Assembly: GCA_020720625.1 (NCBI GenBank)
Contig: DYOH01000016.1
Span: forward strand, 1-48,238
Reading direction: 5' to 3'
DNA length: 48,238 nucleotides
Source of the DNA: Acetofilamentum sp.
GTDB taxonomy: Bacteria; Bacteroidota; Bacteroidia; Bacteroidales; DYOH01
The translations under genes and the position numbers were made by a program. The notes beneath the pieces were generated by a model. It worked only from the letters and a program-made list of their open reading frames with translations. It was not told the DNA's origin and did no database searches. This document shows positions 4,261-48,238 of the stretch, piece after piece; the stretch's first letter is position 1, and every line of letters starts with the position of its first letter.

Positions 4261-5072
4261 TTATAGTGTAGGAATGGTAACAATAAACCTGCTACCTGCG
4301 CCAAATTGACTTTCCACAGCTAAAGAACCTTTGTGCTTTTGAACAAAGTCTTTACACAAGATTAGTCCCAAACCAACCTGTCTCTCCGTTAGTGCGGGAG
4401 AACTGTTTTTTTGTTCCAACAAAAACAATTTTTCAATTTGTTCGGTTTTAATCCCCAAACCCTTATCAATCACTTCAAAAACAGTATTATTATAATCTTG
4501 GTAAGCCTTTAGCAACACCAATTTTCCTTCGGAAGAATATTTAATGAGTCTAGTTTAAAAACCCTGCCAGCGTTGATTTTTATAAAATGCTGTAACTGTA
4601 CTAATCAGTTTATAAGTCAATTAAGAAAACGCTGGCAGGGATATAATCATTTTTTCAATCTTTTTAGACTGAACTCATTAATATCTCCCAAATTATTATA
4701 TGCATAAGCTTTTTGGTGCAAACATGTTTCAGAATCGGCTATTGAAATGGCTTTAGCAAAATTATCGCGTGCAAGTGAATATTGTCCCAGATTTCGTTTT
4801 ACAATACCGAGTTTATTTAGAACTTCTGATTGCTTGCAAGGCAAATTTAACTTTTCGAAATAGAGATAGGCCTTATTTCCGTACTCAATCGCTAAAAATG
4901 GACTATCGGCCCTATGTTTCCAACACAAATCGTAAAGCAAGTTAGCTCTCTTTTCTAAATCCATTGAAGCCAAAAATGCGCTATCGTTTGTATTATATAA
5001 CTGTGCATGTGCCAAGTAGCTTTTAAATAGCCATAGAAAAATATAAAAACAGACCGTTTTTAGCTTTATCAT
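4261..5072 (-). pseudogene. Broken TPR sensor histidine kinase, middle part missing
   Basis: Two minus-strand pieces of one kinase type flank the repeat element. The N-terminal piece (5072 down to about 4682) encodes a signal peptide and the first tetratricopeptide repeats and runs into the element just after NNLGDI, stopping at 4647. The C-terminal piece (about 4545 down to 4261) begins inside the N-box at I-K-Y-S and keeps the G1 box DKGLGI and the G2 box VGLGLILCK to the end of the ATPase domain. The remaining TPRs, the membrane helix, the histidine box and the front of the ATPase domain are absent. Compared with the intact gene at 2325-4181, roughly 350-380 residues are missing. No functional kinase can be made; the short N-terminal piece could still be exported. 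Confidence 0.85.
4541..4681. repeat. Inverted-repeat element inside the broken kinase gene
   Basis: A 141-bp element made of nested inverted repeats: outer arms 4541-4549 with 4673-4681 (9 bp, perfect), middle arms 4550-4561 with 4661-4672 (imperfect), and inner arms ccctgccagcgtt at 4562-4574 with its exact complement at 4628-4640 (13 bp). The loop is 53 bases. The right arm has an extra stretch at 4641-4660. Two half-copies form the window ends. It encodes no protein. It could be a small non-autonomous mobile element or another kind of dispersed palindromic repeat; no transposase is nearby. Confidence 0.8.
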
Positions 5073-39765: not shown

Positions 39766-42531
39766 TTAATGTGCTTCTAACCAGTTTTTTCCCTTTCCAA
39801 TTTCTGCTTTAAGCGGCACCGATAGTTTGGCGGCATTTTCCATCCCTTCGAGTATTATCAGTTGCATTTTCTCCCATTCATCCGGTTTAACGTTGAAAAC
39901 CAGCTCGTCGTGCACTTGCAGCAACATTCGTGAATGTTGCCCTTGGCTTTCTATTTTCCGATGAATTTCAATCATGGCTATTTTGATAATATCTGCCGCA
40001 GTACCTTGTATTGGGGCATTGATGGCATTTCGCTCTGCCACACCACGCATCACTTGATTCGATGAGTTTATTTCTTGTAAATACCTTCGGCGTCCAAACA
40101 TTGTTTCTACAAAATGGTTTTCTCGGGCTTGTTTTATCTGGGCATCCATATATTCTTCCACTTGTGGGTAAGCCGCAAAGTATCCGTCGATGAGTTCTTT
40201 GGCTTCTGTGCGGCTAATACGCAAATTTTGCGCTAATCCGAACGATGAAATGCCGTAAATAATTCCAAAGTTTGCTGATTTGGCTTTACTACGCATCTCT
40301 GAACTAACTTCACTTTCGTTGATATGGTAGATTTTAGCGGCTGTGGCGCGATGAATATCTTTGTTTTGATGGAAAGCTTCAATTAGATTTTTATCGCCGC
40401 TCAAATGAGCCATAATGCGTAATTCAATCTGCGAATAGTCGGCCGAAACAATGAAATCACTATCTGATTCTGCAACAAAGGCTTGCCTTATTCTTTTGCC
40501 TTCATCACTTCGAATAGGTATATTTTGTAGATTTGGATTATTGCTACTTAGACGGCCTGTGGCTACAAGCGCCTGATTAAATGATGTATGTATTTTGCCC
40601 GTTTTTTTGTTAATATTTTCGGGCAGGCTTTCTACATAAGTGTTGAGCAATTTTTTAAGGGATCTGTATTCGAGTATTTTGTCTATGATTGGGTGTTTGT
40701 CGGCCAATTTTTGCAATTCTTGCTCTGATGTGGAATATTGCTGTGTTTTGGTCTTTTTCTGATTATCGGTGATTTTCATTCTGTCGAATAGCACTTCGCC
40801 TAATTGTTTGGGAGAGCCAATATTAAATTCAAAACCGGCAATACCGTAAATTTCTTTTTCAATGAGCTGAATTTTGTCTATCAGCTCGTTACCAAATTTT
40901 TTTAATTCTTCGGTATTGATGTTTATGCCGTTTAATTCCATGGTAGCCAATACCGGAATAAGTGGTATTTCTATGCTATTGTAAAGCTCTGTAAATCCGG
41001 CCAATTTTATTTTTTCGTATAGTATTGAATAAAGTTGCCAGGTAATATCTGCATCCTCGGCGGCGTATTCTTTTATTTGTTGTAGTGGCACAAAACGCAT
41101 GTTTTTTTGGGAGCTGCCTTTTTTTCCGATTAGATTTTCTATTGAGACCGGGCTATAGCCTAGGTATTGCTCTGCCAATGCGTCCATATTGTGGCGCTGG
41201 TCTGCAAACAGCAAATAGTGGGCAATCATGGTATCGTGGAGATTGCCTTTTATTTCGATGCCGTAGTTTTTTAGTATTTGAATGTCGTATTTTATGTTTT
41301 GGCCTATTTTCGATATGTTTTCGTTAAGAAAAACTGATTTTAACTGATTTAGTCTGTTTTGCGTTTCTTTTTGATTTTCGGGCATGGGAATATAATAAGC
41401 CTCATGGGCTTTAAAAGCAAACGAAATTCCCACAATTTCGGCATCTACAACATCCAATGAGGTAGTTTCTGTATCGAAACAAAATTCTTTTTGTTGTTTA
41501 AGCATATTGGCCAGGGCAATTATTTCTTCTTCGGAATTAATTAACTGGTAATTGTGATTCGTTGTTTCGATAGTGGCCAATTTTGGCTTGCTTTCGGCCT
41601 GTTTATTTTCTTCGGGAAAGTTGAATAAACTTGTTTGTTGAAAACTTTGCTTTTCCTCTGTTTTTACAATTCTTTTGAGTAATGATTTAAACTCTAACTC
41701 ATTGAACACTTCTTCGAGCTTTTCGTCTTTAAAATTTTTTCGTTCGAATGTAGCAGTATCGTATTCAATAGGAACGTTTAAATCTATGGTTACTAATTCT
41801 CTGGCAAGAGTTAATTGCTCCTTGAAGTTAATTAGATTTTCTTTCAATTTGCCTTTAAACTGATCCAGGTTTTCGTAAATGCCTTCTATATTTTTAAATT
41901 GCCCAATTAGTTCTTTCGACCTTTTTTCGCCTACGCCAGGCATGCCTTTGATGTTGTCGGCAGCGTCGCCCCATAGCGCAAGCACATCTATTACCTGTTT
42001 GGGGTCTTCGGTGCCAAAGGCCTCATTTACTTCCTTTATTCCCCATATTTCTAAATCCTGCGCACCTTTTCGTAATTTATACATCATTATGTTTTCGCTA
42101 ACAAGCTGACAATAATCTTTGTCGGGTGTTACCATGTAAACTGTAAATCCTTGTTTTTCTGCTGCTTTGGCCACAGTGCCTATTACATCGTCGGCTTCGA
42201 AGCCATCTTTTTGCAGGATGGGTATTTGGTATGCTTCGAGAATTTTTTTGATATACGGAACGGCTATTTTTATTCCCTCGGGCGTTTCATCTCTATTGGC
42301 TTTATAATCGGCATACATTTCGTTGCGGAAAGTTGGGCCTGATGGATCAAAAGCAACTGCAATATGACTTGGTTTCTCCTTCCGCAGAATTTCGTCGAGC
42401 GTATTTACAAATCCAAAAATTGCCGAGGTATCTAATCCTTTTGAATTGATTCGCGGATTATTGATAAATGCATAATGGGCTCTGAAGATTATTGCATAAG
42501 CATCTAAAAGGAATAGTCGTTTTTGTTCCAT
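39766..42531 (-). CDS. polA: DNA polymerase I
   Basis: A 921-residue enzyme for Okazaki fragment processing and repair. The 5'-nuclease domain (residues 1-290) shows DGFEADDVIGTVA, DKDYCQL and the helix-hairpin-helix GMPGVGEKRSKELI. The 3'-5' exonuclease keeps its acidic residues (FDTETTSLD, NIKYDIQIL, YAAEDADIT), so proofreading should be active. The polymerase has motif A DYSQIELRIMAHLSGD, motif B RSKAKSANFGIIYG and motif C LLQVHDELVF. Length and domains are complete. It lies on the minus strand, about 80 bases after queD, with a promoter-like element upstream. Confidence 0.98.
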   Translation of the reverse strand: MEQKRLFLLDAYAIIFRAHYAFINNPRINSKGLDTSAIFGFVNTLDEILRKEKPSHIAVAFDPSGPTFRNEMYADYKANRDETPEGIKIAVPYIKKILEAYQIPILQKDGFEADDVIGTVAKAAEKQGFTVYMVTPDKDYCQLVSENIMMYKLRKGAQDLEIWGIKEVNEAFGTEDPKQVIDVLALWGDAADNIKGMPGVGEKRSKELIGQFKNIEGIYENLDQFKGKLKENLINFKEQLTLARELVTIDLNVPIEYDTATFERKNFKDEKLEEVFNELEFKSLLKRIVKTEEKQSFQQTSLFNFPEENKQAESKPKLATIETTNHNYQLINSEEEIIALANMLKQQKEFCFDTETTSLDVVDAEIVGISFAFKAHEAYYIPMPENQKETQNRLNQLKSVFLNENISKIGQNIKYDIQILKNYGIEIKGNLHDTMIAHYLLFADQRHNMDALAEQYLGYSPVSIENLIGKKGSSQKNMRFVPLQQIKEYAAEDADITWQLYSILYEKIKLAGFTELYNSIEIPLIPVLATMELNGININTEELKKFGNELIDKIQLIEKEIYGIAGFEFNIGSPKQLGEVLFDRMKITDNQKKTKTQQYSTSEQELQKLADKHPIIDKILEYRSLKKLLNTYVESLPENINKKTGKIHTSFNQALVATGRLSSNNPNLQNIPIRSDEGKRIRQAFVAESDSDFIVSADYSQIELRIMAHLSGDKNLIEAFHQNKDIHRATAAKIYHINESEVSSEMRSKAKSANFGIIYGISSFGLAQNLRISRTEAKELIDGYFAAYPQVEEYMDAQIKQARENHFVETMFGRRRYLQEINSSNQVMRGVAERNAINAPIQGTAADIIKIAMIEIHRKIESQGQHSRMLLQVHDELVFNVKPDEWEKMQLIILEGMENAAKLSVPLKAEIGKGKNWLEAH

Positions 42532-42561
42532 GGTTTGTATGTATAAATAAATAAGGCGCTA

Positions 42562-42569
42562 CAAAATTA
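42562..42569 (-). promoter_or_regulatory. Possible -7 promoter element for polA
   Basis: On the minus strand this reads taattttg, matching TAnnTTTG, about 30 bases before the polA start codon. No -33 TTTG was seen. Confidence 0.35.
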
Positions 42570-42613
42570 ATTGTTTTTTTATATTCAGCTTCATAATTAA
42601 AAAACAGGCGGCT

Positions 42614-43063
42614 TTATTCATTATCCGATGCATACCACTCTGCATAAGAAGTGCTTGTTTCATATAGCTTTAGACTATGCAATTGGACTTTTGCGGGCAA
42701 TTGATTTTTTAATTTCATTGCAAAATCCAGTATCAGGTTTTCGCAAGTTGGTTGATATTCTGAGATTTCCATTCGACCGAACATTTGAGCTATATTTTGA
42801 ATCTGTAATTGTTGGGCATCTTTACTTAATACGATACTGTGATCGTATTTTTCAGTAATCTCCTTTTTTACAATTTGCTTTAAATCGCTAAAATCCATAA
42901 CCATTCCTAATTTTGGATTTTTTTTGTCTGTAATGGCTTCGCCAATTACGGTTACCAACAGCTTATATGAATGTCCGTGTATATTTTTGCACAATCCATC
43001 GTAGTTCCACAGTGCATGCGCCATTTCGAAGTTAAATTCTTTGGTTAATCTAATTTTTGCCAT
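42614..43063 (-). CDS. queD: 6-carboxytetrahydropterin synthase / 6-pyruvoyltetrahydropterin synthase family
   Basis: A 149-residue cytoplasmic zinc enzyme. Zinc histidines are His16 (EMAHAL) and His29 and His31 (IHGHSY), with the catalytic cysteine at Cys25. These residues define the QueD/PTPS family; in bacteria the usual role is the second step of queuosine synthesis. The C-terminal YETSTSYAEWY carries the family's conserved glutamate. No other queuosine genes are in the window. It is separated from the surface cassette upstream by about 100 bases. Confidence 0.9.
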   Translation of the reverse strand: MAKIRLTKEFNFEMAHALWNYDGLCKNIHGHSYKLLVTVIGEAITDKKNPKLGMVMDFSDLKQIVKKEITEKYDHSIVLSKDAQQLQIQNIAQMFGRMEISEYQPTCENLILDFAMKLKNQLPAKVQLHSLKLYETSTSYAEWYASDNE

Positions 43064-43170
43064 TTTTATTTTTGCTTAAAATGCGCAAGTTTAATAAAAA
43101 TATCACTGCCAAAAAAGCTTTATCTGTTTCTTATTTAGAATTAATTTAAATTAATGATTTTTAGAATTAC

Positions 43171-43704
43171 TTATTTTAAACCTTCTCCTGGCGCTTGGTT
43201 TCCTAATATAATGCCATTTCGTGTAAATACATCTTTACCTGAACGTAGTATTGGAGTTTTCGGATCGTATGGATTTCCGCCATAAGCCCAGCCTGGTCGT
43301 TCCAGTAGCATCGATTTTATTATTTCTGCATCCTGGGGCCACTGGTTTTGCAAACGGTGTATAAATACGACTATATTTTTCGGTAATTTGTCGTGAAGCA
43401 TTTTTACTTCTTCTATGCTTAATGTGCCATCTAAAATCATAAAGATATAGCTGTTGATTTTTACTTTATTGGTGGCATTAGCATAGATAAAAGTGCTGTT
43501 TTTATCCCAATAGCTTTTTTGTTCTACTTTCGGAAATCCATTATAGTTTGGGTTACGTGAAACTATGAGATAATCTTTATTGCCGTTTTTTACCGACATG
43601 TGCTGAATGGCAAAATAGGGAAATGCCCAGTGAAAGTTGAATTGGGCCACTGCTATGGAAGGAATAATTAGCAGCAAGAAATATAAAATGATTGTTTTTT
43701 TCAT
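43171..43704 (-). CDS. Exported protein of unknown function, last gene of the surface cassette
   Basis: A 177-residue exported protein with a clear signal peptide (residues 1-20, ending IAVAQ). I do not recognise the family. The mature part has aromatic strands (FNFHWAFPYFAIQHM), a central strand-helix segment KINSYIFMILDGTLSIEEVKML, and a glycine/proline-rich C-terminus (RPGWAYGGNPYDPKTP, ILGNQAPGEGLK). It has no C-terminal sorting signal and no lipobox, so it is likely periplasmic or secreted. It starts 15 bases after the stop of the 76-residue-repeat protein and should be co-expressed with it. Confidence 0.65.
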   Translation of the reverse strand: MKKTIILYFLLLIIPSIAVAQFNFHWAFPYFAIQHMSVKNGNKDYLIVSRNPNYNGFPKVEQKSYWDKNSTFIYANATNKVKINSYIFMILDGTLSIEEVKMLHDKLPKNIVVFIHRLQNQWPQDAEIIKSMLLERPGWAYGGNPYDPKTPILRSGKDVFTRNGIILGNQAPGEGLK

Positions 43705-43719
43705 GGCATTTTTTTTGTA

Positions 43720-45537
43720 TTAGTTGCTTAAGTTGTTTACTATAAATGGTTTATCGAAATATACGGCTTTCTTTATCCGTAGAAGTTCTTTTGCAGGCAC
43801 TTTGGTGCGGTAAAGGTATAGTCCTTTGCCTTGGATGCTGAAAATAGGCAATGACTTTAAGTATTGATAATCTGCTTTACTTATTTTTGCTTTTTCAAAA
43901 AGATAGGAGGCAAAATCTTGGTGTTCGTTCAGGTAAGCCCCTATTTGAACAGTAACGCTATCGCTTATTTCTAAAGGAATATTCTCGTCCCAGGAGCGTT
44001 GAATCAGTATTTTAGTGAGCTCTTGTTTTTTTTCCGGATCTTCCACTTTTTTTATGTATTCTTTGAGTTCGTTGGTACTTATTAAGCCCATATTATCTGT
44101 TTCTTCGGAGGCCTGCATTTCGCTTATCCAACTGGCAGTATCTGCAAAAAATCCATAAAAAGCTACTAACTCTTCATTATTTGGTGGATTTAGGGTATTG
44201 CTGAGCATCACTTTTCTTTCGTGGCTAAAATATGTTTCGTCGGCTTGAAGCTTTGCCAATACTCTCTCTTTTATTTGGGGTTTTAGCACTCCGTCTTCAA
44301 TGGCGTGTTTGTCTATACCCAAATAATCGGCTTCGGTAGCTGTGATACTTGCAGCCTCTTCATATTCATCATTTAAAAAGAAGAACACAAACGAAATAAT
44401 TTCTGAATTTTCCGGGCTTATTTGGCTTTGCAATTGTTTTTTTCGCTCAACTGTGAAAAATGTTTCATCCGCTTTTAGTTTAGTTTCCAAATTTTGCAAT
44501 GCTTGTTTTTGAATTACTCCGTCTGTTATGGAGTTTGTATCCAGATTTAAATAATCTGCTTCTGCTTTTGTGAGGCTTAGGGCTTCTTCGTACTCATCAT
44601 TCAAAAAGAAGAATACAAAAGAAATTATTTCCGAATTTTCGCGTGCAATGTTGGCCAGAAGCATTTCTTTGCGTTCCGCTGTAATAAGTGTTTCCGCTTC
44701 ATTTAATCGGTTTTTTAGGTTTTGCAGTGCATGTTTTTCTAATACCCCATCGCTTATGCTGTTGCTATCCAGATTTAGATATTCTGCCTCTGCTTTTGTA
44801 AGCGAGACAGATTCTTCGTATTCATCATTCAGGAAGAAAAATACAAACTGAATTATGCTGCTTTCAGGAGAGGCACTACGTATTTTCAAGCTGTCTTTTT
44901 CGATGTATACCAATAGATTATCTGTAAAACTGATGCTTCGGGCAAAGAAATTCACTGAGGTAAGTTTATTTTGTGCAAATACTAATGCATTACTTTCGCC
45001 TGTTTCGATGTTAATGGCATCAAAATAAATTTCCGAATTATTGCTCCATAAATTGATGATATGTTGCTGATTGAGTTCGTTTATCACTATTTTTTCTGCA
45101 TAGTTTTTTTTTAGCCTGTAGAGTTGAAATAATCCTTCGGCATCGCTTGTAAACCATGTTTCATTTTCGGGGCTGCTCACAATATCCCTTTCGTTGCCAA
45201 GGTTTGGTATTCCTTTTATATTGGCTGTTCCTCCGGGAATAATTTGGCCGGCTATACCGTTTCCTGCATAGAAAGTGCCTGTGTTGCCAATGTAGAATGG
45301 AATAAATGCTTCATCGCCGGGTCGAAAAATAACGTATTTTTGTATGTCCTGGTTAATATCGAGCACTGTGCAGTGAATATTTCCTTCATAAATTTGTACT
45401 TTCTGAAATTGTGCGGCAAATGGGAGCTCTTGGTATGGTATTGCTTTACCATAAATCAGGTTTTCGGGCAATGTGCTATTTTGCGCATTTACCAACAGAG
45501 GCAGTAAAATCAGTAAAGAAAGGATAATTCTTTTCAT
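43720..45537 (-). CDS. Exported protein with three tandem 76-residue repeats
   Basis: I chose the Met at 45537 (MKRIILSLLILLPLLVNAQ), which gives a clean signal peptide; an earlier Met at 45561 would put eight charged residues before it. The protein has 605 residues. Residues about 25-220 are a beta-rich domain. Three nearly identical units of 76 residues follow (about 224-451), each opening FVFFFLNDEYEE and including K-A-E-A-x-Y-L-N-L-D and an E-R-K motif; a fourth, diverged unit begins AFYGFFADTASW. The repeats lie 228 bases apart at DNA level. I know no matching family. It sits between a PorP/SprF-like barrel and a small exported protein, so a role in that surface system is likely. Confidence 0.75.
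   Translation of the reverse strand: MKRIILSLLILLPLLVNAQNSTLPENLIYGKAIPYQELPFAAQFQKVQIYEGNIHCTVLDINQDIQKYVIFRPGDEAFIPFYIGNTGTFYAGNGIAGQIIPGGTANIKGIPNLGNERDIVSSPENETWFTSDAEGLFQLYRLKKNYAEKIVINELNQQHIINLWSNNSEIYFDAINIETGESNALVFAQNKLTSVNFFARSISFTDNLLVYIEKDSLKIRSASPESSIIQFVFFFLNDEYEESVSLTKAEAEYLNLDSNSISDGVLEKHALQNLKNRLNEAETLITAERKEMLLANIARENSEIISFVFFFLNDEYEEALSLTKAEADYLNLDTNSITDGVIQKQALQNLETKLKADETFFTVERKKQLQSQISPENSEIISFVFFFLNDEYEEAASITATEADYLGIDKHAIEDGVLKPQIKERVLAKLQADETYFSHERKVMLSNTLNPPNNEELVAFYGFFADTASWISEMQASEETDNMGLISTNELKEYIKKVEDPEKKQELTKILIQRSWDENIPLEISDSVTVQIGAYLNEHQDFASYLFEKAKISKADYQYLKSLPIFSIQGKGLYLYRTKVPAKELLRIKKAVYFDKPFIVNNLSN
44330..44863. repeat. Three tandem 228-bp coding repeats
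   Basis: The string catcatt with its surroundings recurs at 44367, 44595 and 44823, exactly 228 bp apart. The copies keep reading frame (76 codons) but differ at many bases, so they are old or have been converging under selection. The coordinates mark the most conserved parts and the span between them. Confidence 0.8.
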
Positions 45538-45580
45538 GATTCCGTTTTTTGTGCGGCGCAAATTTTCATTTTATAAAATA

Positions 45581-46423
45581 TTATAAGGCTAATTTTTGCG
45601 ATTTCCACAAATACGCACTGTAAATGCCGTAGCCCGGAATGTTATTTGCGGGGTTTAGCTCGTAACTAAAGCCCAAACTGAGCCATGTGTATGGTTTAAA
45701 ACCCATTTCGAAGGCCATTCTTGATTTTATATTGCTCTGGGCATAAATGTAATTGTTTTTGTAAGCTATATAAATGCCAGCATAAACATTATTTTTATCA
45801 AAATGGATTAAATCGAATGCTTGAATCGGGAGTTTGATTTCCCAATCGTTTAGTTGATATTGTGCTCCCAGAGTGGCATTCATATATTGCATTTTGTAAG
45901 CATTGTATTCGGAATTTAAGGCAAATATTTGATTGTAACCGCTAATCAGCCAAAAATATTTTTGCAAAACGCCAATGGAAGCAGTAACTCCTGCGTTATT
46001 AAATGCTTGATAAGAAACGAGTGGGTCGGCCTGATTAAAACTTTCGCTTTGCCTGTTTACCTCATTTCGTTGAAAAATAGTTCCTGCGCTGGCGCTAATT
46101 TTCCATTGTGGTATAATTTCCATCGTCCAACCTAATGCCATCAAAGCTTCCAGCTTTTGGTCGCTTAACAGGCTTTCCTTTTTTATTTCCGTTTCTAGCG
46201 CAAATAGTTGTTTTTCATTTTGATAAAATGGTGCATGTAAACTCAATTTTATGCTTTTGTAGGCATTCATGCTGCCATCGCTCTCGTGGCTGATGTATAT
46301 ATGGCCACGGGCAGTATAATGATTGAGCAAAACAAAGTTTTTTTGCTGATTATATTGTGCTTTAGCTAAACCAATTGTTGTCGTGAAGCTTATCGTAATG
46401 ATGATTATTTTTAGTATTTTCAT
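45581..46423 (-). CDS. PorP/SprF-like outer-membrane protein
   Basis: A 280-residue exported barrel protein with a signal peptide (residues 1-22, ending AKAQ). The gene directly follows one for a gliding-motility-associated C-terminal domain protein, as PorP/SprF genes do, and the body has the many short amphipathic strands of that family (ISASAGTIFQRNE, YMNATLGAQYQLNDW, WLSLGFSYELNPAN). The classical N-terminal D-P-x-F-S-Q-Y motif is absent, so it is a diverged member. PorP/SprF proteins are needed to deliver type B CTD proteins through the T9SS to the surface. Confidence 0.6.
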   Translation of the reverse strand: MKILKIIIITISFTTTIGLAKAQYNQQKNFVLLNHYTARGHIYISHESDGSMNAYKSIKLSLHAPFYQNEKQLFALETEIKKESLLSDQKLEALMALGWTMEIIPQWKISASAGTIFQRNEVNRQSESFNQADPLVSYQAFNNAGVTASIGVLQKYFWLISGYNQIFALNSEYNAYKMQYMNATLGAQYQLNDWEIKLPIQAFDLIHFDKNNVYAGIYIAYKNNYIYAQSNIKSRMAFEMGFKPYTWLSLGFSYELNPANNIPGYGIYSAYLWKSQKLAL

Positions 46424-46472
46424 AAGGATGGGTTTAGCGTCTGTTTGTTAAATTCATTGCTTTCTTCATGGC

Positions 46473-48008
46473 TTATCTGAGAAGTTTTACTACATGTTTT
46501 AGAGTGCTGGTGGCTATATTCATGTATGCAGGATAAGCGATTGTTGAAATTATCAAATAGTATCCTGCTGTGGCTCCGGTGCCCGTAAGGTTGTTGCTTC
46601 CGTCCCAGGCGGTGCTGCCTTCGTATATTTCTTTGGATGCTATGGCATTCATTTGTATGTCTCTATATGTGTATACCCTGAATGTTAATGTTGTTCCCTG
46701 TGGAACCAAAGGCATCCAAATATCGTTTATTCCATCGCCGTTTGGACTAAATATATCTGAGGTCTGAATGCAGGCATCCTGGGATTGCGGTACAATAAAT
46801 ACCTGGCTTGTGCTACAGCCTCTGGCATCGGCCAAAAATAAACTGTGTTGTCCCGCTGACAAGTTCAAGAGGCTATCCTGTAATGGGGTAGCCTGGTTGT
46901 CTGTTTCAAGATAGACAACCTCGGCCGGATATTGCAGAATGGCGCTTCCATCAGCACTTTCGGAGCAAATCGGTGATTCTATTTCGCTTACGCCCACATA
47001 TATGGACCAGTCTCCTTCTTTTTCGATGATTCTGTGGATCTCAAAAACCGAATTGCCGCTGTAAACAGTAAAAGTCTGACCTCCAAATGAGCTTGGAATA
47101 TAAGCTGAATCGTTGTTGATGGTATGCATAACGGTGTGGAAAAGGCTATCAATTAGGCCCCTACTGATAACTATTTCTATTTCGGCATCTGCTCCATCGC
47201 ACCATCGGGCTACCTGGGTTTGCTCTATTTCGAAGTTCGGATCTGGCATACTTTCCACAAAAAATTGTTTTGTCCAGCTAAAACTGCCCGAAGTAACAAC
47301 CAGGGTTTGCATGCCGCCCGCTAAAGGTATATTGAAAGTACTGGCATCTATGGTACTCCCATTTAATGTGTTGATGATACTGCCATCGGATAAATTCCCG
47401 GTGAGGCTGCCCATAGCTCCAATTGGGTCGGCTAGCACAATTTGTTCCAGAATTAATTCGGGCTGCGTTTCCAACGGGATATATAATGCAATATGCTCAA
47501 TACAGCCCGAATTGTATGTGCACGCTATATTTACATTACCATTTGCCTGAACGTATGCTTTTCCGTAACTCGAACTTATCAGGCTGCCCTGACTTAAAGA
47601 CCATTGGTTTACCTTAAAGAGGTTTGAATCGCTCAGCCAAACGGTGGATGTGTTTAGGTTATATCGTGTATTGTTGGTTACGAAGCTTTTGAAACTTATG
47701 CTTTCGGTAGATACTACAACCAAAGTGTCTATTACCGTAATTACCGGATTATTGTAAAAAAATCGCACAATTAACTGGTCGCCTAGATTCGCTTTTATTA
47801 TTTGCGATTTTTGTGCACTCAACATACCGTTTATTCTCCAGCTTAGGCTATCCCATTTAATCGTATCAGGGAATAGATAGGCGCTTACATCAATAGTGCT
47901 CACAGAATCGCAAGCTCCTAGCTGCTCTTGCATAAACTGGATACTTTGTGCCTTTACTATCGTTTGAAAGACTAGAATGCTCAACAAGTGAAAGAAAAGT
48001 TTTTTCAT
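46473..48008 (-). CDS. Surface protein with gliding-motility-associated C-terminal domain
   Basis: An exported protein of 511 residues from the Met at 48008 (MKKLFFHLLSILVFQTIVKAQ signal peptide); the earlier Met at 48026 adds six residues. The middle is beta-rich with immunoglobulin-like segments. The last 90 residues are the type B T9SS/gliding C-terminal domain: DIFSPNGDGINDIWMP, followed by the strand pattern ending in HVVKLLR. Such proteins are carried across the outer membrane by the T9SS together with a PorP/SprF partner, which is the next gene downstream. It is the first gene of the four-gene cassette. Confidence 0.85.
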   Translation of the reverse strand: MKKLFFHLLSILVFQTIVKAQSIQFMQEQLGACDSVSTIDVSAYLFPDTIKWDSLSWRINGMLSAQKSQIIKANLGDQLIVRFFYNNPVITVIDTLVVVSTESISFKSFVTNNTRYNLNTSTVWLSDSNLFKVNQWSLSQGSLISSSYGKAYVQANGNVNIACTYNSGCIEHIALYIPLETQPELILEQIVLADPIGAMGSLTGNLSDGSIINTLNGSTIDASTFNIPLAGGMQTLVVTSGSFSWTKQFFVESMPDPNFEIEQTQVARWCDGADAEIEIVISRGLIDSLFHTVMHTINNDSAYIPSSFGGQTFTVYSGNSVFEIHRIIEKEGDWSIYVGVSEIESPICSESADGSAILQYPAEVVYLETDNQATPLQDSLLNLSAGQHSLFLADARGCSTSQVFIVPQSQDACIQTSDIFSPNGDGINDIWMPLVPQGTTLTFRVYTYRDIQMNAIASKEIYEGSTAWDGSNNLTGTGATAGYYLIISTIAYPAYMNIATSTLKHVVKLLR

Positions 48009-48028
48009 ATTTTTATATTTATTCATCC

Positions 48029-48048
48029 AATCATAAAATATTATGATT
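48029..48048. promoter_or_regulatory. Short palindrome just upstream of the surface cassette
   Basis: aatcataa (48029-48036) and ttatgatt (48041-48048) form an 8-bp stem with a 4-base loop immediately before the first possible start codon of the cassette. It may be an operator or a leader hairpin. Confidence 0.35.
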
Positions 48049-48147
48049 CATCTTTTTGATTTATGTGCAAAATAAATGAAATAATTATGATTTTCATCTC
48101 TCCTGATTATTGAGTATTCAGATTTGGTTCTTTTAGTCTCAATAGCT

Positions 48148-48238
48148 ATTATTGAGTCTAGTCTAAAAACCTTGCCAGCGTTCATTTTTATTAAATGCTG
48201 TAACTGTACTAAACAGTTTATAAGTCAATTAAGAAAAC
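48148..48238. repeat. Left half of the inverted-repeat element, at window end
   Basis: The last 91 bases match 4540-4630 of the internal copy with about seven differences. It carries the arm ccttgccagcgtt (48169-48182 region) and the outer arm attattgagt (48148-48157), which pairs perfectly with actcaataat at 45-54 at the window start. Confidence 0.85.

Follow-up and report, generated by a model that had tools for sequence, protein, structure and literature searches.

A rare four-gene cassette of Bacteroidales that may tie a type B surface protein to the cell wall

Introduction

What do two exported proteins of no named family do when they are encoded directly behind a putative type IX secretion system (T9SS) cargo and its putative outer-membrane barrel? 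The question is raised by four minus-strand genes at positions 43171-48026 of a 48,238-nucleotide stretch of DNA (contig DYOH01000016.1, hereafter the window) from the uncultured Bacteroidota bacterium Acetofilamentum sp. An initial annotation, made from the letters alone, had read them as a surface cassette consisting of a type B-like cargo (gene 1), a PorP/SprF-like barrel (gene 2), a tandem-repeat protein (gene 3) and a small exported protein (gene 4), the last two possibly being new parts of either a surface structure or the export process. Here, we report that the cassette is a rare but conserved unit, and we lean toward a reading in which it makes a statically anchored surface protein, with gene 3 standing in for the anchor protein PorE.

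Excerpts from the literature describe the modules to which this cassette can be compared. PorE, PorP and PG1035 of Porphyromonas gingivalis form a complex, with PorE as the proposed link from PorP to the peptidoglycan, and porE-like genes adjoin porP-like genes (PMC9143113). In Flavobacterium johnsoniae, the type B protein Fjoh_3952, the SprF-like Fjoh_3951 and the PorE-like Fjoh_3950 are proposed to form a static complex anchored to the wall; type B substrates with a PorE homologue encoded alongside are proposed to be static, and those without one to move (PMC12618676).

Results

The open reading frames (ORFs) of all four genes are present on one strand, separated in transcription order by 49, 43 and 15 bp as computed from their coordinates, and each product begins with a putative signal peptide as judged by eye. 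A search with gene 3 among 99 relatives returned matches in five genomes: its own (G000), G001, G002, G019 and, weakly, G051, whose match (L012, E=4.5e-4) was discarded as chance because it falls in a long, repetitive surface-type ORF. G019 (loci L009/L014) and G002 (L010/L015) encode all four genes in identical order on one strand, between flanks unlike those of the window, and the genes overlap by 4 bp in L014 and by more in L015 (gene 1 at 32-1114 and 137-1402, respectively). The surface-cassette reading, which had been made to depend on a conserved neighborhood, thus finds it complete and collinear in two further genomes. In G001 (L011/L013), genes 3 and 4 only are found at a contig end, followed by counterparts of the window's next two genes, so that the evidence for the cassette rests on four genomes, three of them with complete copies.

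A profile of gene 4 confirms how rare the unit is, with matches in 4/393 genomes of the order, 3/3 of the family, 1/395 of a class sample and 2/395 of a phylum sample (one of them spurious), as well as three loci in public genome contigs and none in viral contigs. We rejected a match in G873 (E=6.9e-4, residues 2-62), where a 563-residue ORF (L084) is alike only around the signal peptide. A profile of the gene 3 repeat gave 11 matches, all inside gene 3 proteins of the same 4/393 genomes. Identities between the window and G019 or G002 are 42/22% for gene 1, 32/10% for gene 2, 37/27% for gene 3 and 51/40% for gene 4. G002 belongs to the same family and G019 to another, yet all four window proteins are closer to those of G019. 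This mutual agreement against taxonomy, a comparison of identities with no tree built, suggests that the four genes were transferred or lost together.

Gene 3 (45537-43720, minus strand, as are all features below unless they lie outside the cassette; 605 residues) has the place that PorE takes behind the barrel in known operons. As the initial annotation had suspected in calling genes 3 and 4 unfamiliar, neither matches a Pfam or NCBIfam family above cut-off, and none of the four gene 3 proteins matches OmpA or TPR domains. Its C-terminal domain (residues ~525-605, 43720-43965) is SPOR-like by profile match and by the predicted order of strands and helices. Against the SPOR profile (PF05036), hhalign returned a probability of 56%, E=1.1e-4 and a score of 25.2, compared with a mean of 9.2 and a maximum of 16.2 for shuffles, none of 300 being as good; this second test used all 28 listed domains, and a first one with 12 of the 28 had scored 17.85 (0/100 shuffles as good). 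When windows were slid along gene 3, 19 of 21 scored 6.4-11.0 against SPOR, whereas the final two reached 19.9 and 25.1. The match centers on the first strand and its glutamine, which is invariant in all four gene 3 proteins, and the extended alignment covers 66 columns. According to excerpts of PMC6895207, SPOR domains share less than 20% mutual identity and recognize their ligand via backbone contacts, a basic patch and a glutamine named as critical. The predicted model of the gene 3 end follows the order E-H-H-E-E-H (E, strand; H, helix) at a predicted local distance difference test score (pLDDT) of ~70-84. SPOR proteins such as FtsN, DamX and RlpA (names from PMC6895207) share with it the strand-helix-strand-strand-helix order and the first-strand glutamine; the gene 3 end differs in a longer helix region, a third strand that ends, unusually, in YR-x-K and the lack of a Pfam match. 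Profile searches of the PDB with this domain returned two designed repeat proteins (E=5e-9 and 1.3e-7), aligned over many stretches of a few bits, and further matches at E=0.074 and 0.4, none of which we consider credible. At E<=0.001, Foldseek matched neither the gene 3 nor the gene 4 model to any structure, and no SPOR chain is among the structural matches listed for gene 3, which are filled by its propeller region.

That region, the strand-rich residues ~22-225 (44863-45474), may form a beta-propeller: its named structural matches are largely propellers (Z ~5.4-6.6, best 6.6), obtained with a poor model. Between it and the SPOR-like end, residues 228-447 hold the tandem repeat that the initial annotation had described, present both as three DNA copies 228 nt apart and as three protein copies of about 76 residues (44179-44862; units at 44635-44862, 44407-44634 and 44179-44406). 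By eye only, a fourth, degenerate copy follows residue 447. Copy number varies, with three units in the window, two in L014, five in L015 and at least one in the L013 fragment. Within the window, units 1 and 2 share 66% identity, and unit 1 shares 21-40% with units of other genomes, which points to gain or homogenization of copies within lineages. We rejected kinship of the repeat with SPOR, as 39/300 shuffles scored as well, and its best PDB profile match had E=0.3. The mature gene 3 protein is acidic in the three complete copies (isoelectric point, pI, 4.7, 5.5 and 4.7).

Gene 1 starts at either of two possible ATGs (48026 or 48008, ending at 46473; 517 or 511 residues). Its type B-like match lies near the C-terminus of a protein whose gene is followed 49 bp downstream by the barrel gene, and is weak for both CHU_C (E=5.7e-4, 20.4 bits for a cut-off of 27, residues 415-487 of the 511-residue reading) and TIGR04131 (E=2.1e-3, 18.1 bits for a cut-off of 35). 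The annotated set of four close genes on one strand is borne out in ORFs, coordinates and strand, with a weak type B match.

Gene 2 (46423-45581, 280 residues) is a divergent PorP/SprF-like outer-membrane barrel. The window protein has no Pfam match at E<=10, including to PorP/SprF (PF11751), and the L014 protein likewise has no PF11751 match. Their syntenic counterpart in L015 matches PorP_SprF above cut-off (E=2.7e-10), and a profile of the window and L014 proteins scored 29.7 against PorP proteins of the own genome (four strong matches of five, the weak fifth being excluded), compared with a maximum of 22.3 among 100 shuffles, none as good. Through this orthologue and profile, gene 2 can be placed as kin to PorP/SprF, the window protein being too divergent for the Pfam model. 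By reading of their C-terminal tails, the barrels have no C-terminal cysteine pair or Cys-X-Cys, unlike the gliding SprF.

The four strong PorP matches of the own genome lie elsewhere. Three adjoin type B genes, and the fourth adjoins an FGE-sulfatase protein that we take to be GldK, with neighbors that we take to be GldL and GldM; since this PorP lies beside them, a T9SS is probably present in the genome. One of the three PorP genes beside type B genes encodes a PorP_SprF-OmpA fusion. Such a fusion directly follows a type B C-terminal domain (CTD) gene at 6581-8110 of L020 (own genome, contig C120) and at 2102-3550 of L091 (G001, C274), and match positions alone hint at the same arrangement in G002 (C191) and G019 (C178). 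It represents a one-protein solution to wall anchoring.

Gene 4 (43704-43171, 177 residues) is the most conserved member of the cassette (40-57% identity in three orthologues) and is basic in all four copies (pI 9.3-9.5). Aromatic and charged residues are invariant directly behind the signal peptide and close to the C-terminus. Neither Pfam nor NCBIfam offers a named relative at the thresholds applied, PDB sequence profiles gave no match, and we regard gene 4 as a new family of small, conserved exported proteins. Its AlphaFold2 model (pLDDT 69) resembles YfiR: the five best VIA-align rows are all YfiR (Z 6.7-7.5, root-mean-square deviation 4.0-4.2, 121-127 residues aligned) and the next, unrelated rows stand at Z 5.8, in a range (Z under 8) where the tool itself cautions that a match may reflect just a common arrangement. 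Pfam and profile tests do not support a kinship by sequence. PF13689 matched none of the four gene 4 proteins at E<=10; a gene 4 profile scored 18.4 against 30 YfiR sequences (30 loci out of 111 listed matches), within the range of column shuffles (maximum 23.0 of 100); and hmmsearch scores against YfiR fell below those of shuffles. A rank test in which real YfiR sequences scored slightly higher than shuffled ones (p=4e-4) was given no weight, as natural sequences can beat shuffles generally. We treat the resemblance, which comes from a predicted fold, as a lead only.

YfiR-family (PF13689) proteins are numerous in the order, being found in 25/60 genomes. The own genome encodes nine and G002 encodes 14, several of them in long open frames. 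At 4979-8594 of L085 (own genome, C11) and 3957-7610 of L086 (G001, C62), a YfiR-family gene forms a conserved trio with a permease-like gene and a type B CTD gene. We did not count this proximity toward the YfiR idea, given that a permease-like gene lies in between and no barrel gene is seen in C11 or its G001 counterpart.

A scan of 42500-48238 detected no terminator-like site on the minus strand, and promoter-like matches there are at chance level (20 found versus 19.8 expected). A 139-bp interspersed palindromic element resembling a miniature inverted-repeat transposable element (MITE) has a full copy at 4542-4680 of the window and partial copies at 48150-48238 and 1-52, the contig stopping inside a copy at both ends. 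It has terminal inverted repeats and a strong hairpin (-47.4 kcal/mol, z -7.7), and occurs in at least 42 places of its own genome, the query itself included (40 of 145 candidates scored); an Rfam search of the window gave no match. A contig end adjoins all three complete cassettes, with the start of gene 1 at 212 (window), 31 (L014) and 136 (L015) bases. The window cassette lies near a contig end because the MITE-like element is located there; the contig starts of L014 and L015 have no match to it.

Discussion

We take the cassette for a new variation on the wall-anchored type B module, with a mechanism that we infer as follows. Gene 1 would be exported by Sec and then by the T9SS through its type B-like C-terminal domain, and would remain attached to the barrel encoded by gene 2, in the way that PG1035 remains with PorP. 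Gene 3 would act as a soluble periplasmic anchor replacing PorE, its propeller-like N-terminal part holding the periplasmic face of the barrel, its 76-residue repeats serving as a spacer of variable length and its SPOR-like domain holding peptidoglycan, probably in the denuded form present at septa and young poles. Gene 4 may supply a small basic partner in the periplasm, perhaps one that binds the acidic gene 3 protein. Because SPOR domains recognize the denuded glycan of septa, the gene 1 surface protein may by analogy be located at division sites or poles. An anchor-like gene together with barrel tails that have no cysteine pair makes a static, wall-tied surface protein the best reading, in favor of which we also count the other wall anchor of the own genome, the PorP_SprF-OmpA fusion beside a type B gene.

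The cassette shares with the PorE operons of P. gingivalis and F. johnsoniae the order cargo, barrel, anchor candidate and the type B-like signal, and gene 3 has, like PorE, a predicted C-terminal domain of a wall-binding type and may also have a propeller, as the poor model hints. PorE presumably ties PorP-type barrels to the wall by its OmpA domain, in whose place gene 3 has a SPOR-like one; gene 3 differs further in having no TPR and in the added 76-residue repeat. A conventional operon, encoding a CHU_C protein, a PorP_SprF protein and a 683-residue TPR-PD40-OmpA protein, is found in G019, the same genome that also has the cassette. The PorP_SprF-OmpA fusions (own genome and G001) would likewise tie a type B barrel to the wall, with the difference that barrel and anchor form one protein there and the anchor is of the OmpA type. 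A full-text literature search for "SPOR domain" and "type IX secretion" returned a single match which, by its title, concerns a type 2 secretion system.

Several observations weigh against the anchored-surface-protein reading. The propeller depends on a model with a mean pLDDT of 51, and the N-terminal part of gene 3 matches a PorE profile no better than shuffles do (18/60 as good). At E<=10, the Pfam SPOR model matches none of the four gene 3 proteins, and just 9-10 columns make up the significant core of its profile match. PorE is a lipoprotein, whereas gene 3 has no lipobox by eye, and the PorE operons compared encode no equivalent of gene 4. In L013, the gene 3 fragment has a basic pI of 9.3, gene 1 falls under the curated type B cut-offs for both CHU_C and TIGR04131, and gene 1 of L015 has no CHU_C match. 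We accordingly claim membership in SPOR, PorE or YfiR for neither gene 3 nor gene 4, nor, by curated cut-off, in CHU_C or PorP_SprF for the window proteins.

Genes 3 and 4 could instead form a sensor pair like YfiB and YfiR, in which a wall-bound gene 3 protein captures or frees gene 4 as the state of the surface structure changes, gene 4 then acting on a receptor in the inner membrane. The run of YfiR rows at the top of the structural matches and the opposite charges of the two proteins in the complete copies speak for this, as does the likeness to YfiBNR of a periplasmic protein paired with a wall-binding partner. Gene 4 nonetheless fails the profile, PF13689 and hmmsearch tests, its Z values may mean merely a common arrangement, no YfiN-like receptor gene is seen in the cassette or nearby, and the partner is SPOR-like rather than OmpA-like; we consider the sensor pair unlikely. 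Also improbable is the composite of both ideas, in which a SPOR-type replacement of PorE ties the barrel to denuded septal glycan at division sites or new poles while an anchor-bound YfiR-like protein reports engagement of the surface structure. The other role that the initial annotation had allowed for, in export, would have genes 3 and 4 serve specifically in exporting or folding gene 1 or 2, leaving no lasting structure, in line with their putative signal peptides and their constant company with genes 1 and 2 in three complete copies. A structural anchor is favored over an export component because gene 3 has the PorE position and a SPOR-like end, and in the excerpted account of P. gingivalis the PorP-PG1035 complex forms without a need for PorE (PMC9143113), so that we hold this role to be doubtful.

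With only three complete cassettes known, genes 3 and 4 might be mere neighbors, functionally unrelated to genes 1 and 2, which their collinearity in three contexts, where the genes overlap or lie at most 49 bp apart, makes very unlikely, as does the closer relation of all four proteins to G019 than to G002, as if inherited or moved together. We give hardly any credence to a moving, gliding-type adhesin on a Gld track. FGE-sulfatase proteins that are presumably GldJ/GldK-like are encoded beside PorP-type genes of the own genome, which would suit such an adhesin, but the barrel tails have no Cys-X-Cys. In F. johnsoniae, the moving SprF is disulfide-linked to GldK via a C-tail cysteine (PMC12635249), and moving substrates have no PorE-type neighbor (PMC12618676, PMC12635249).

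A statically anchored surface protein, with gene 3 in the place of PorE, thus remains the reading we prefer. If an unrelated SPOR-like protein does fill the PorE slot, the anchor of type B modules would be exchangeable, and an anchor of this type would predict the place of the surface protein on the cell.

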